This document shows positions 2,656 to 61,795 of a stretch of 64,000 nucleotides of DNA, piece by piece (within the stretch, counting starts at the first letter, position 1; every line of letters starts with the position of its first letter). This DNA is from Cytobacillus dafuensis (GTDB lineage Bacteria > Bacillota > Bacilli > Bacillales > Cytobacillaceae): NCBI RefSeq assembly GCF_007995155.1, contig NZ_CP042593.1, positions 3,576,001 through 3,640,000 on the forward strand, in the 5' to 3' direction. Under the pieces are notes generated by a model. The model was not told where the DNA came from. It did not search any database and saw only the letters and a list, made by a program, of their open reading frames with translations. A program made the position numbers and the translations under genes.

Positions 2656-2679
2656 AAAAAGATTCCTCCTATCTTCATA

Positions 2680-2984
2680 GAAAAGCGTAAGCGCCTTTGC
2701 AAAGGGACGTCGACTAAAGACCGCCACGTCCTGTGGCGAACATCGACGTCAGCACGTCCTGTGCAAGTCCGACAAGCATAAGACGGGCCGTCGAGAAGGT
2801 TGTTCTTTAACCTTCTTGGCGGACTGGCTTATGACCTCGAGGTCGACAATACCGCGACGTCCTCCCAAAAGCTTCTCTTTTGGTCGTGCGATGTGTTGCT
2901 GACGAAGCTTTCCTTGTCCTGTCGCATTGTCGACACTAGTACATCCTGTACGTCGGGGGTAGGCGTAGGCGCTGGAGCTAGACA
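2680..2984 (+). repeat. Modular repeat, copy 1 (AAAAGCG...GGCGCTGGAGCTAGAC type) with three RUCCU hairpins
   Basis: The element starts AAAAGCGTAAGCGCC and ends GGCGCTGGAGCTAGACAT. Between them are three small hairpins with RTCCT loops on the plus strand (2723-2737, 2752-2764, 2939-2951), a large hairpin at about 2777-2835 (CATAAG.../...CTTATG, with AGAAGGTT/AACCTTCT) and a CCAAAAG/CTTTTGG hairpin near 2868-2883. Related copies lie at 17336-17516 and 19430-19556. RUCCU terminal loops are the hallmark described for the Bacillaceae-1 RNA motif. It occupies the space between gerM and rph. Open frames inside it are not believed. Confidence 0.75.
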
Positions 2985-3029
2985 TATCTCTAACTCAAAA
3001 AAAGCTATACTTATACTTTAAAAAGCCAA

Positions 3030-3076
3030 TGACAACGGAAAGAGGCGGCATGATTTGCCTCCTCTTTCCATTGTCA
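3030..3076 (-). terminator. Long hairpin terminator after gerM
   Basis: GACAACGGAAAGAGGCGGC pairs with GCCTCCTCTTTCCATTGTC with few mismatches. On the minus strand the hairpin is followed by ATTGGCTTTTT. It separates gerM from the repeat element and rph. Confidence 0.75.
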
Positions 3077-3102
3077 CTATATAGTATATCAAAAAACTTT
3101 TT

Positions 3103-6456: not shown

Positions 6457-6532
6457 ATTACATCACCTAATTCAATAAAGTTTCCTTTATTTTAACATGG
6501 ATGCAATGAACTAGAAAAAGTTTTTTCTTATA

Positions 6533-6664
6533 AGAAAAACATGGCGTTCACCAAGTCCTTTTTGGTGAATGCCTTAGTTTATCTTATGCGATCTTATTAG
6601 CAGATATTAAATTGAACACACACTTTACTTTAGTACGTTAATAAACTTAATCTTTCCTATTAGC
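6533..6664 (+). repeat. 134-bp dispersed repeat, copy A
   Basis: Starts AGAAAAACATGGCGTTCACC and ends CCTATTAGCT. A hairpin GGCGTTCACCAA/TTGGTGAATGCC fills the first 50 bases, followed by the conserved segment CTTATGCGATCTTATTAGCAG. Related copies lie at 23137-23268, 23269-23402 and 60822-60955, with a degenerate one at 48402-48468. It directly abuts the T-tract of the racE terminator. Confidence 0.85.
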
Positions 6665-6690
6665 TAAAAAAACCTTCGAAATCCGAAGGC
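6665..6690 (-). terminator. racE terminator
   Basis: CCTTCG/CGAAGG arms with a five-base loop and seven T on the minus strand, just beyond the racE stop. Confidence 0.88.
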
Positions 6691-14659: not shown

Positions 14660-14848
14660 TTCACAGTGTGATAGCTCTCCAAGACGAATTTGTCTTGACA
14701 ATCTTGCATTTATTCAATACAAAACCAGCAAAGAAAGTGATGAGACTTTCTCCACTTCGGCAAACATTCCCTTTCAAAGCTTTTCATTGAAGCCCATTCT
14801 TCTCCAAGCATTTACTATTGAAGTTCGCACCTCTATCTTCACTATAAG
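14660..14848 (-). promoter_or_regulatory. Lysine riboswitch (L-box) aptamer
   Basis: The minus strand contains the conserved L-box segments: GATAGAGGTGCGAACTTC, AGTAA, GGGAATGTTTGCCGAAG and the closing GAGAGCTATC that pairs with the opening GATAG to form P1. It lies upstream of lysC with a following terminator hairpin. Lysine binding should lower lysC expression. Confidence 0.94.
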
Positions 14849-17335: not shown

Positions 17336-17516
17336 CGAGTTAGAGGAATGCCTAGCTCCACAAGGAATGCTTCGGCAGCATATGCATCGCACGACTAAAA
17401 GTGGAGCTTTTAGGAGGAGCGCCTACCCCCGACGTACAGGATGTACTAGTGTCGACAATGCGACAGGACGTGGCGGTATTTAGTTGATGTTCCCCTTTCA
17501 AGGCGCTTCCGCTTTT
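17336..17516 (-). repeat. Modular repeat, copy 3 (inverted relative to copy 1)
   Basis: Minus strand starts GAAAAGCGGAAGCGCC and ends TGGAGCTAGGCAT, the same termini as copy 1. It contains the GTCGTGCGATG module shared with copy 1, a GTAC-RTCCT-GTAC hairpin at 17434-17446 and a related one with one mismatch at 17460-17474. The end of the element directly touches the etfA stop codon, so it forms the etfA 3' untranslated region. Confidence 0.72.
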
Positions 17517-23023: not shown

Positions 23024-23136
23024 TTTTTATTCCCTCCTTCTAAAAATTAAGTTTTTAGAACATTCAAACTGTTCATTCCTATTATAATATAATGAAGTTT
23101 ACGTGACAATTAGAATAAGACTTTTCACACTTAATT
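23024..23136. other. Region upstream of lcfA
   Basis: Contains TCATTCC at about 23074-23080, one good FadR half-site, but the other half is not recognisable. Nothing else is supported. Confidence 0.35.
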
Positions 23137-23268
23137 AGAAAAACTTGGCGTTCGCAAAGTCATTTTTGCGAATGCCTTAGTTTTTCTTATGCGATCTTAT
23201 TAGCAGATATTTAATTGAAAACACACTTAACTTTAGTAGGTTAATAACTTAAATTTTCCTGTTAGCTT
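23137..23268 (+). repeat. 134-bp dispersed repeat, copy B (tandem with C)
   Basis: Hairpin GGCGTTCGCAAA.../...TTTGCGAATGCC followed by CTTATGCGATCTTATTAGCAG and an AT-rich tail ending GTTAGCTT. It is directly joined head-to-tail to copy C. Confidence 0.88.
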
Positions 23269-23402
23269 AGAAAAACTTGGCGTTCGCAAGTCCTTTTTGG
23301 CGAACGCCTTAGTTTTTCTTATGCGATCTTATTAGCAGATATTTAATTGAACTCACACTTTACTTTAGTACGTTAATAAACTTAAACTTTCTTATTAGCC
23401 AA
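23269..23402 (+). repeat. 134-bp dispersed repeat, copy C (tandem with B)
   Basis: Hairpin GGCGTTCGC.../...GCGAACGCC, then the same conserved middle and tail, ending CTTATTAGCC. It abuts the A/T tract of the terminator at 23401-23436. Confidence 0.88.
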
Positions 23403-23436
23403 AAAAAATCGCCATTGTGTCATGGCGATTTTTTTC
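23401..23436. terminator. Terminator after the 27-residue ORF
   Basis: AAATCGCCATTG.../...CATGGCGATTT with A-run before and T-run after, so it can act in both directions. Confidence 0.88.
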
Positions 23437-40390: not shown

Positions 40391-40417
40391 AAAAGACTAC
40401 ATGCTAATATTTTATTC
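40391..40417. other. Gap between dmsC-like gene and inverted-repeat element
   Basis: Short linker with no terminator; the following element separates the anchor gene from the next ferredoxin gene. Confidence 0.3.
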
Positions 40418-40666
40418 AGGCTATGTTAAAGCTCAGTGTTGATAATGCTATTTTGTTGTTGATTGGAGCGGAAGGCGCGAGATCCTTGAAAATGCATTCG
40501 CATTTCCTTCGTGCGGAGTTTATTCGGGGATGATTATTCAACGTCCTGCGGGAGAAGCGAGTCAAAGGGAGACCCCGCAGGAGCTCTCTTCGACGAGGAG
40601 GCTTCCGACCGCCCGCGATCGCTAAGTGCCTGCAGCGGAAATCAACAGGGAAGTTTAACATAGCCT
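40418..40666 (+). repeat. Element with 13-bp terminal inverted repeats, copy 1
   Basis: AGGCTATGTTAAA (40418-40430) and TTTAACATAGCCT (40654-40666) are perfect inverted repeats. Inside lie a second inverted pair (GTTGATTGGAGCGGAA/...GCGGAAATCAAC-type) and a GC-rich hairpin TCCTGCGGG/CCCCGCAGGA. It differs from copy 2 (51606-51794) by an extra segment of about 60 bases. No transposase is encoded. It interrupts the reductase operon. Confidence 0.88.
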
Positions 40667-40689
40667 TCAATTAAAAAGGAGTGGCTTTG

Positions 40690-45514: not shown

Positions 45515-45815
45515 ATAAAAAACCTAATCCCTATAAAGGGACGAGGTTTTGGATTCGCGGTACCACCCTTTTTAACACAAAAAGCATATATAGACAGCTT
45601 TATGTATTCGCTTCATTAAGATAACGGCTTAAGCCGGTACATCTTTACAATGATAAGCCTAGATAATATCTAACTAAAATAAGCAAATCAATGGTCCCGA
45701 TGTCAACTCTGGAGGTGAATGTTCATTTGCAATCCCATGAAAATGCTCTCAGTCTAAGGCATTCTCTCCCTGAAAAGTTCCTTGCAAGCTACTTTTCTCC
45801 GTCATTGTTTTATTA
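45515..45815 (-). promoter_or_regulatory. T-box leader of pheST (Phe, specifier TTC)
   Basis: On the minus strand the T-box core AAAGGGTGGTACCGCG is at about 45574-45559, followed by the terminator hairpin AACCTCGTCCC/GGGATTAGGTT plus T-run at 45550-45519. The stem I side reads GAACATTCACCTCC, with TTC (45719-45717) as the likely Phe specifier. Uncharged tRNA-Phe would stabilise the antiterminator. Confidence 0.93.
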
Positions 45816-51605: not shown

Positions 51606-51794
51606 AGGCTGTATTAAAGCTCAGTGTTGAAAAAGCAATTTTGTTGTTGATTGGAGCGGAAGGCGCGAGACTCCTGCGGGAGATGCGAGTCAAAGGGAGA
51701 CCCCGCAGGAGCGATAGCTACGAGGAGGCTTCCGGACCGCCCGCGGAAAGCGAGTGCCTGTAGCGGAAATCAACAGAGAAGTTTAACATAGCCT
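51606..51794 (+). repeat. Element with terminal inverted repeats, copy 2
   Basis: AGGCTGTATTAAA (51606-51618) and TTTAACATAGCCT (51782-51794) pair with two mismatches. The interior hairpin CTCCTGCGGG/CCCCGCAGGAG and inner pair GTTGATTGGAGCGGAA/GCGGAAATCAAC match copy 1. 189 bases, no coding capacity. Confidence 0.85.
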
Positions 51795-52817: not shown

Positions 52818-53098
52818 TCTATAAAGTGAAACTTCCATTAGTGGGGGTTTTTCGACGCACAGGACGTGCTAGTGCCGACGTTGCCACAGGACGTGGCGTT
52901 CTTAGTCGGCCTTCGTCCCCCACTGATGGTTAGTTGCGGCCCACAGGAAGTGGGTCACGCAGACGTTGCCACACGATGTGGCGCTTTTAGTCTGTGTTCA
53001 TTTTACGGGCATTTACGGGCAGTTGATCCCCCACTTACTCTTCTTTGCATACGCGAATCCTTGAAGTGGGGGTCTTACTGCCCGTTAATCTGCGATAA
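52818..53098 (-). repeat. GTGGGGG-framed repeat, copy 1, with four RUCCU/AGGAY hairpins
   Basis: A left hairpin (AGTGGGGG 52840-52847 with CCCCCACT 52917-52924) encloses hairpins 52857-52869 and 52883-52897; two more follow at 52940-52954 and 52968-52982 (last with loop ACGAT). A right nested hairpin pairs ACGGGCAGT (53015-53023) with ACTGCCCGT (53077-53085) and CCCCCACTT with AAGTGGGGG inside. The strand given is the one with RUCCU loops. Element end TTAATCTGCGATAAA is shared with copy 2. It fills the gap between rplT and ysdA. Confidence 0.8.
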
Positions 53099-53156
53099 AA
53101 TTCTACTATTAAAATGGTTAAATAAGTGGTCCATTTTTATTAAATTGTTCCTAAAT

Positions 53157-54410: not shown

Positions 54411-54690
54411 AAGGATTAATGCGAACACAATGTTTGGGTCAAGAATGACTTTTAAAAAGAAGCCAACTACACCAGACAAAATAATAAATCGCAAGTATAC
54501 ATAACATTTCTGCTAATAAAAGCAGTTTGTATTAAACCAATAAAAAAAGTGTGGATGCTAACACCCACACTTTACGGACAAAATAAACAAAAAATGTTCA
54601 CGTAAAACCTGCCAACTGCTCATTGCGTCAATCAGGTGAGAAGCGGGTGCTTCTTCTTTTCCTCAAACTGTATTCAATTACCTTAGATAC
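54411..54690 (-). promoter_or_regulatory. L20 leader with attenuator of infC-rpmI-rplT
   Basis: The minus strand shows CACCCGCTTCTCACCTGATTGACG, a conserved block of Firmicute L20 leaders, at about 54650-54620, followed by a rho-independent terminator at 54572-54541 (AGTGTGGGTG.../...CATCCACACT then T-run) well upstream of infC. L20 binding should favour the terminator. Confidence 0.85.
54541..54572 (-). terminator. Attenuator terminator in the infC leader
   Basis: AAGTGTGGGTG pairs with CATCCACACTT and is followed by seven T on the minus strand, about 145 bases before the infC start. Confidence 0.88.
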
Positions 54691-60789: not shown

Positions 60790-60819
60790 AAAAAAGAGCT
60801 AAAGAAATTCTTCAGCTCA
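60790..60819 (-). terminator. nrdR terminator
   Basis: GAGCTGAAGAA/TTTAGCTC hairpin followed by six T on the minus strand, between nrdR and dnaB. Confidence 0.75.
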
Positions 60820-60821
60820 TT

Positions 60822-60955
60822 AGATAAACTTGGCATTCGCCAAGTTCTTTTTGGCGAATGCCTTAGTTTTTCTTATGCGATCTTCTTAGCGGATATTTAA
60901 TTGAAAACACACTATATTTTAGTACGTAAATAAACTTAAACTTTCCTATTAGCTA
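60822..60955 (+). repeat. 134-bp dispersed repeat, copy D
   Basis: Hairpin GGCATTCGCCAA/TTGGCGAATGCC, then the conserved CTTATGCGATCTTCTTAGCGG and tail ending CCTATTAGCT. It begins at the edge of the nrdR terminator and runs straight into a left end of the modular repeat. Confidence 0.88.
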
Positions 60956-60976
60956 AGAAAAGCGTAAGCGCCTTGC
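60956..60976 (+). repeat. Solo left end of the modular repeat
   Basis: AGAAAAGCGTAAGCGCCTTGC equals the left end of copy 1 at 2679-2699 but nothing of the interior follows; nrdR coding begins at once. Confidence 0.6.
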
Positions 60977-61575: not shown

Positions 61576-61795
61576 GGATAAAATGAAACTTCAATCAGTG
61601 GGGGTTTTCCTTCATCCCCCACTGATTGTTAGTTGAACCAATCACGCTCAAAACGCCACGTCCTGTGGCTTTCGCCTGACTAGGACATCCTGTCCGTCGT
61701 CCGGCTTTTACGGGCTGTTGATCCCCCACTTAGAAATTTATTCTTAACTCAACTTCTTGAAGTGGGGGTCTTACAGCCCGTTAATCTGCGATAAA
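61576..61795 (+). repeat. GTGGGGG-framed repeat, copy 2, with two RUCCU hairpins
   Basis: Left hairpin ATCAGTGGGGG (61594-61604)/CCCCCACTGAT (61616-61626) is perfect. Hairpins with RTCCT loops lie at 61655-61669 and 61683-61695. Right nested hairpin pairs ACGGGCTGT (61710-61718) with ACAGCCCGT (61773-61781), enclosing CCCCCACTT/AAGTGGGGG. The last 15 bases TTAATCTGCGATAAA equal copy 1. Its inner hairpins are in the opposite orientation to those of copy 1. Confidence 0.8.

Follow-up and report, generated by a model that had tools for sequence, protein, structure and literature searches.

What are the small hairpins that recur in the gap separating rph (RNase PH) from a gerM-like gene of Cytobacillus dafuensis, and what accounts for their spread? 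We analyzed a 64,000-nt stretch of contig NZ_CP042593.1, which is called the window here; positions are those of the window unless the genome is named. The first-pass annotation had listed eleven hairpins in four intergenic elements, sharing AC/GT inner pairs and an RTCCT or AGGAY loop, and had assigned them to the Bacillaceae-1 RNA family. The window was scanned for RTCCT loops on stems of at least four pairs, with G-T allowed. Eight of the eleven hairpins were as described, with a stem of at least four pairs, inner AC/GT pairs and a loop of RTCCT or AGGAY (loops starting at 2728, 2756, 2943, 17438, 52861, 52888, 61660 and 61687). The other three deviated: the stem at 17460 is broken (GCGAC/GTGGC), and the loops at 52940 and 52968 are AGGAA and ACGAT, respectively. 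The scan listed four further RTCCT sites with stems of at least four pairs (5148, 8846, 48891 and 55563), all without the AC/GT inner pairs. The family assignment was confirmed by a covariance-model search with RF01690, the Bacillaceae-1 model, which gave four window matches above the gathering score of 35 bits, at 63.6, 39, 63.3 and 74.5 bits. Matches to microRNA families at 3011-3090 were discarded, as they scored far under their gathering scores. The window also contains a lysine riboswitch (14664-14843), a T-box (45534-45814) and an L20 leader (54537-54664).

The hairpins lie in elements that we assigned to two classes. Class I is called PATE-like, PATEs being palindrome-associated transposable elements. 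The features in the window are as follows.

2679..2984, plus strand: class II composite element, bounded by the left motif AGAAAAGCGTAAGCGCC and the right motif GGCGCTGGAGCTAGACA
2698..2765, plus strand: RF01690 unit with two RTCCT hairpins, 63.6 bits
2842..2951, plus strand: second RF01690-like unit of the element at 2679..2984, recognized by sequence, with no Rfam match at the gathering score
2864..2920, plus strand: 52-nt stretch followed by GTCCT, inserted in a hairpin loop; GTCCT stands at 2859-2863 and again at 2916-2920
17433..17499, minus strand: RF01690 unit in a class II element in the etfA/trxA gap, 39 bits
52821..53094, minus strand: class I PATE-like element with two RF01690 units, in the gap between rplT and a DUF1294 gene
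52856..52921, minus strand: RF01690 unit in the tip loop of the right-end hairpin of the element at 52821-53094, 63.3 bits
52940..53006, minus strand: RF01690 unit between the left-end and right-end hairpins of the same element, 74.5 bits
61578..61790, minus strand: class I PATE-like element in the nrdR/speD gap, its right-end hairpin loop without a unit
61649..61699, plus strand: RF01690-like unit in the orientation opposite to its element at 61578-61790, with hairpins 61660 and 61687, below the gathering score

The ends of the class II element between rph and the gerM-like gene were inferred from presence/absence pairs, and an AT-rich stretch of about 40 bp to the right of 2984 is probably also part of it. 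At the orthologous place in C. citreus, a short unrelated stretch stands instead of the unit at 2698-2765, while the class II element is otherwise recognizable (event 3578694). In the unit at 2842-2951, the loop of the first hairpin is interrupted. The target pentamers of the two class I elements lie at 53095-53099 (TTTAT, minus strand) and 61791-61795.

The outer stem pairs had been described as changing together, and the larger collections bore this out. Among distinct 15-mers around C[AG]TCCTG, 30 of 537 had all four outer pairs in Watson-Crick form; the same 15-mer count around scrambled cores gave 2/195, 1/187 and 4/397. The stem pairs of 25 cluster representatives were Watson-Crick in 240 of 270 scored cells, compared with a shuffle mean of 172.7 and a maximum of 188 in 2000 shuffles; this test leans somewhat towards structure because the sequences were gathered by a profile seeded with Infernal hits and the shuffle ignores kinship. 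The mismatched pairs of these representatives comprised 8 G-U and 10 A-C, indicating that neither strand has the wobble excess expected of RNA. Among 166 unique sequences, stem 1 had 47 A-C against 14 G-U pairs, with 26 of the 47 at one pair position; if anything, this surplus favors the opposite (AGGAY) strand. Stem 2 had 14 of each. The terminal loops of the same sequences were mostly RUCCU: loop 1 was GTCCT in 121, ATCCT in 8 and of other sequence in 37 (ATCGT in 25 of these). Folded as RNA on either strand, the loop-filled hairpin gave z values of -7.1 and -6.0, and the window unit gave -2.5 (5 of 200 shuffles equally good). The terminal hairpins of class I, folded as DNA on typed representative ends, reached -24 and -17.5 kcal/mol (z -7.5 and -6.9).

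We then counted copies. RF01690 is matched at least 150 times in the genome; all 150 that were scored, among 658 candidates, matched, and 121 of them are co-oriented with replication when the halves are split at 2.5 Mb. C. citreus, the closest named relative found (97% identity over a 470-aa query protein that we take to be DnaB), has 141. Under stricter filters, 34 of 36 genomes of the genus were matched, with 2 to at least 69 matches each, and two had none. In total, 61 genomes were searched, of which 47 had an RF01690 match and 14 did not. One of the genomes carries a head-to-tail RF01690 array with a 312-bp period and 14 consecutive equal scores (G017:C4:356465-360587).

The carriers were read in 80 stretches around RF01690 matches plus the window, 1.59 Mb altogether. 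In this sample, 131 of the 150 matches lay inside class I elements and none was on the opposite strand of its element, although the weaker window unit at 61649-61699 does sit reversed. Of the 19 matches outside class I, 14 had class II end motifs within 330 bp, 3 had only a class I end motif at that distance, and 2 had neither. The 126 class I copies with both ends are 103-276 bp long, with one of 408 bp, and their lengths change in steps of about 60 nt. All are essentially intergenic, with 0 of 126 mostly within an open frame longer than 600 nt. A whole-genome pattern search allowing up to 3 mismatches found 184 left ends and 218 right ends; reversed control patterns of these ends gave no match in the genome. 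Across the genus, 31 of the 36 genomes have left ends, as does a single genome beyond these (G057), and elements related to class I are readable at Anoxybacillus and Niallia loci. In this genome, RF01690 hairpins are thus not free-standing genes but parts of short mobile DNA repeats.

Other repeats were noted as well. A third hairpin-rich family, intergenic too, occurs at 6527-6672, 23130-23407 and 60816-60961, and its double copy at 23130-23407 is missing from C. citreus (event 3599143). C. citreus also lacks both window copies (40411-40670 and 51606-51794) of a G+C-rich element with ends like AGGCTATGTTAAA/TTTAACATAGCCT. Conversely, a tandem stretch of about 365 bp with a 20-bp unit like TGTATATCCGCCACTTCGAC stands in C. 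citreus near G061:C12:919578-919944 (event 3788243) and is nearly missing here.

The ends of class I elements were precise. In the 126 copies, near-random flank is followed on the left by TTTAT and then CGCAGATTAACGGGC[A/T]GTAAGAC, and AAGTTTCACTTTAT on the right is followed by near-random flank; in short, the signature is TTTAT-CGCAGATTAAC on the left and AAGTTTCACTTTAT on the right. The element sits 3' of a TTTAT-like pentamer and has TTTAT as its own right end, and TTTAT stood on both sides in 91 of the 126 copies. The left pentamer deviated in 31 copies; in these, the right one was TTTAT in 28 and equal to the left one in 1. The right TTTAT is kept while the left one varies, indicating that the left pentamer is the host target and the right one is the element's own, with no target duplication. 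Each end has a hairpin near it, and the two ends are not inverted repeats of each other. A TAA stands at the foot of both hairpins and might pair with the TTA of TTTAT; the Anoxybacillus relative has it at the right end only.

Comparison with C. citreus gave five exact pairs of filled and empty class I sites. The comparison flagged 47 differences, and those with one side nearly empty were examined; three class I cases were used together with the two in the window, and cit 3823005 was excluded from the set as unclean. The window elements at 52821-53094 and 61578-61790 are absent from C. citreus, where each empty site is a single ATAAA, as are the elements at genome positions 3778555-3778822 and 3847235-3847500. 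A fifth site (3754003) is filled in C. citreus and empty here, where it reads CTTAT. At 3778555, the empty site reads TTTAGT/TTGAGGG and the filled site reads TTTAGT/CGCAG...CACTTTAT/TTGAGGG. The left TTTAGT is unchanged and the right pentamer is TTTAT; therefore, the right TTTAT arrived with the element. The ends of class II elements and of the loop inserts described below are less well defined than those of class I.

The orientation of class I was assessed relative to the replication fork. Overall, 101 of the 126 copies point with the fork, compared with 73% of genes (p = 0.09), and this excess is weak. The gene counts are approximate because the 1.59-Mb sample was chosen around RF01690 matches, long open frames stood for genes and 2.45 Mb was used as the terminus; the gene and GC-skew optimum lies at 2.35 Mb, and the count of 101 was unchanged for 2.3, 2.45 and 2.6 Mb. 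Three copies had no flanking gene, and the gap counts use the remaining 123. Copies flanked on both sides by genes that run against the fork still follow it in 13 of 14 cases (p = 0.002), and those in convergent or divergent gaps do so in 42 of 46 (p = 5e-9); that is, 55 of 60 copies are fork-oriented in gaps where gene direction cannot explain it. Between genes running with the fork, only 44 of 63 copies follow it, suggesting that another factor acts too. In a set chosen independently of RF01690, the first 100 exact left ends listed genome-wide, 79 follow the fork. Class II is fork-biased when read as its reverse complement (41 of 60 left motifs and 26 of 33 right motifs; among left motifs in convergent or divergent gaps, 15 of 19). 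The third repeat family, read in the same way, has 27 of its 28 sampled right ends pointing with the fork; its left motif is a palindrome and was left out of the orientation count.

Next, we located the units within their carriers. Parsing of the right-end hairpin succeeded in 117 of the 126 class I copies (9 were unparsable), and its tip loop measured 66-69 nt in 64, 6-13 nt in 50 and 41-42 nt in 3. The long loop of 66-69 nt is one RF01690-type unit, and 61 of these 64 are among the 150 scored matches. A second unit may sit between the end hairpins, and units are present or absent as blocks. Within class II, the comparison with C. citreus gave two more gains or losses of a unit besides that at 2698-2765. 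Units were also seen in other families: G045 has them in class-II-like chains, G050 has them among short AAAGGAACTTTCGC repeats, and G043 has one inside a repeat whose ends are inverted. In G043, which is an unrelated genome, the unit lies at two places between the arms CAGATTTT and AAAATCTG, which we take to be an IS605-type right end. At three places of the same genome it interrupts a tnpB-like gene, with junctions that are not exact; an uninterrupted relative of this gene matches OrfB_IS605.

The loops of the units are themselves filled in places. In two Cytobacillus data sets, with identical sequences listed once, 16 RF01690-type loops contain an insert of 51-56 nt. Eleven of these are of type A, with left pentamers GTCCT in 9, ATCCT in 1 and TTCCT in 1 and right pentamers GTCCT in 9 and ATCCT in 2. 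The type B inserts read GGAC-ATCCT-[insert]-GTCCT-GTCC, with ATCCT on the left and GTCCT on the right in 5 of 5. Type B gives a hint of the left/right logic of TTTAT in class I, with the host ATCCT kept on the left and the insert ending in GTCCT; the right pentamers of type A indicate that this rule is not strict. Each insert type may derive from one event and have been copied with its carrier.

From these results, we consider it likely that the RUCCU/AGGAY hairpins are structured DNA modules, carried as cargo by PATE-like non-autonomous elements that spread by single-strand transposition of the IS200/IS605 type. The transposase would be a Y1 (HUH) enzyme like those of IS200/IS605, supplied in trans; no such partner of the elements was found in the present genome. 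It would bind the terminal hairpins on the single-stranded lagging-strand template, cut after TTTAT and paste the element behind another TTTAT. The RF01690 unit would ride along as cargo in the hairpins, and we propose that its stems stay paired because the strand must fold as DNA. The unit most likely entered its carriers, or is exchanged among them, at hairpin tips, as SMR-A repeats do. An RNA role, which the unit may have in addition, is not needed to account for its spread. In a bolder version, which we hold only tentatively and regard as rather unlikely, the RTCCT loop would be the cleavage and insertion site of an HUH-type single-stranded DNA enzyme. Bacillaceae-1 would then be a DNA hairpin of about 60 nt that is itself mobile and multiplies loop-in-loop: units would fill the palindrome tips of PATE-like elements, and other hairpins would fill the RTCCT loops of the units.

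The first-pass annotation regarded the family as a non-coding RNA, as did Weinberg et al. (2010), and RF01690 could be a genuine RNA that mobile elements have multiplied, with RUCCU loops acting in the transcript. The strong stem covariation and the compact RNA fold of the hairpins agree with this, and Table 1, the part of PMC2864571 relevant here, marks Bacillaceae-1 'Y', certainly RNA. However, the RUCCU strand has no G-U excess at cluster level, the units are dispensable blocks in their carriers and missing from two genomes of the genus, and the orientation follows replication where genes cannot explain it. The annotation's family membership was upheld, but transposition largely explains the distribution: copy number runs from 0 to at least 150 per genome, elements are present in one species and absent from the other, TTTAT is used without duplication and the fork orientation is seen where genes cannot explain it. 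We therefore consider an RNA of this kind unlikely.

As a candidate enzyme, the genome offers one Y1_Tnp match, a REP-associated-like (RAYT-like) protein at 52.9 bits, under the NCBIfam cut-off of 80. It belongs to the right enzyme superfamily and is present in this genome, but the 3.3-kb locus around its gene contains no class I end. In addition, Y1_Tnp went unmatched in 11 of the 31 genomes of the genus that carry class I (one of these 11 has 93 left-end matches), and across the 61 genomes, in tables judged by eye, the presence of Y1 does not track the numbers of RF01690 or class I. That this protein mobilizes class I is accordingly quite improbable. No cognate transposase for class I was found in the genome, and PF07282 of TnpB had 0 matches in it. 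The one IS200 type whose ends were read (L093, L095 and L098) was rejected as a partner, these ends being unrelated to class I. Searches with class I gave no match in phage records and two partial matches in plasmid records (48% and 57% of the query), with no annotated transposase in the 6-kb stretches read. The enzyme of the transposition that we favor may have been lost, be plasmid-borne or belong to another HUH family.

We also doubt strongly that the host keeps the elements as terminators or as stabilizers of mRNA 3' ends. Their stable hairpins, their avoidance of long open frames and the 77 of 123 copies in gaps between co-directional genes would fit such a role; against it, divergent gaps hold 27 of 123 copies, those between genes running against the fork are antisense to these genes in 13 of 14 cases, and copies are present or absent between close species.

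The idea that the opposite (AGGAY) strand acts as a CsrA-binding sponge is already in print for Bacillaceae-1; the portion of PMC4333381 concerned describes a motif match for the reverse complement. CsrA was matched in all 47 genomes with RF01690, and the A-C surplus in stem 1 corresponds to G-U on that strand. However, CsrA was also matched in 12 of the 14 genomes without RF01690 (59 of 61 overall), and this presence check is thus uninformative on the sponge idea. Furthermore, one csrA gene stands here against at least 150 copies, and the cluster representatives show no strand excess, which leaves a sponge very improbable. In one genome (G038:C5:414517-419182), two RF01690 matches lie upstream of three CsrA-family matches, no more than about 1.5 kb from the first of them; on that strand they would show RUCCU, not AGGAY. 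Finally, an ordinary cut-and-paste miniature transposon with a 5-bp TTTAT duplication, for which the 91 copies with TTTAT on both sides might speak, is scarcely credible and already contradicted by pentamers that do not covary, by the right TTTAT that came with the element at 3778555 and by ends that are not mutual inverted repeats.

If the hairpins are parts of jumping repeats that insert in step with replication, the label "small RNA" is doubtful here. A family catalogued among sRNAs, and annotated automatically wherever it scores, would be part of mobile DNA in this genus, and covariation, the usual proof of RNA, would then reflect selection on a folded DNA strand. The system is otherwise clear for a transposition system, with a fixed target, precise ends, about 200 copies in one genome and no enzyme in sight. 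The likeness to Bacillaceae-1 itself is a match to the sequence and structure model of RF01690 above the gathering score; the known description is a non-coding RNA, whereas here it would be a mobile DNA module. At the level of titles and opening lines of abstracts, the literature searched on Bacillaceae-1/RF01690 gave no mobile-element reading.

Among established systems, REP/REPIN sequences with their RAYT proteins, as covered by extracts of PMC3733652 on GTAG and CGTC REPs, are likewise intergenic hairpins in high copy, and GTAG REPs are tied to Y1 enzymes. Class I elements differ from these in being larger and multi-hairpin with defined TTTAT ends; no GTAG foot was seen in them, and the RAYT-like gene is unflanked. 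An identity with the CGTC-tagged REPs, as outlined in the same extracts, was rejected since the architecture differs. The IS200/IS605 group, including IS608 and ISDra2, is also comparable. As far as passages of PMC7290912 and PMC6006769 describe them, its members have terminal hairpins, do not duplicate the tetra- or pentanucleotide 3' of which they insert (PMC7290912) and use the lagging-strand template, which is documented for IS608 and ISDra2 (PMC6006769). A strand preference is not universal: a passage of PMC7290912 reports none in Halanaerobium, with 10 of 22 copies on the leading strand. Class I is unlike IS200/IS605 in that the element has no gene and a matching tnpA was not found.

A further parallel is archaeal. 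The PATEs of Haloquadratum walsbyi, in the section of PMC3119063 devoted to them, share with class I the near-terminal palindromes, many copies, a length too short for a transposase, and the lack of terminal inverted repeats and of target duplication. Class I is unlike them in being bacterial, in its measured fork orientation, in that no related transposase was found and in carrying a named RNA family. The cargo also has a counterpart: the SMR-A repeats of Haloquadratum, in the same section, are small, make no target duplication and sit within the near-terminal palindromes of PATEs and IS605-type elements. The RF01690 unit likewise lies in near-terminal palindromes, in 64 of 117 right-end hairpins of class I and at the two presumed IS605-type places in G043. 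The SMR-A repeats described there differ in having about 110 bp and inverted terminal repeats, compared with about 58-67 nt for the RF01690 unit, and we claim no sequence kinship. Class I and its RF01690 unit would thus form a bacterial parallel to the archaeal pairs of PATE and SMR.
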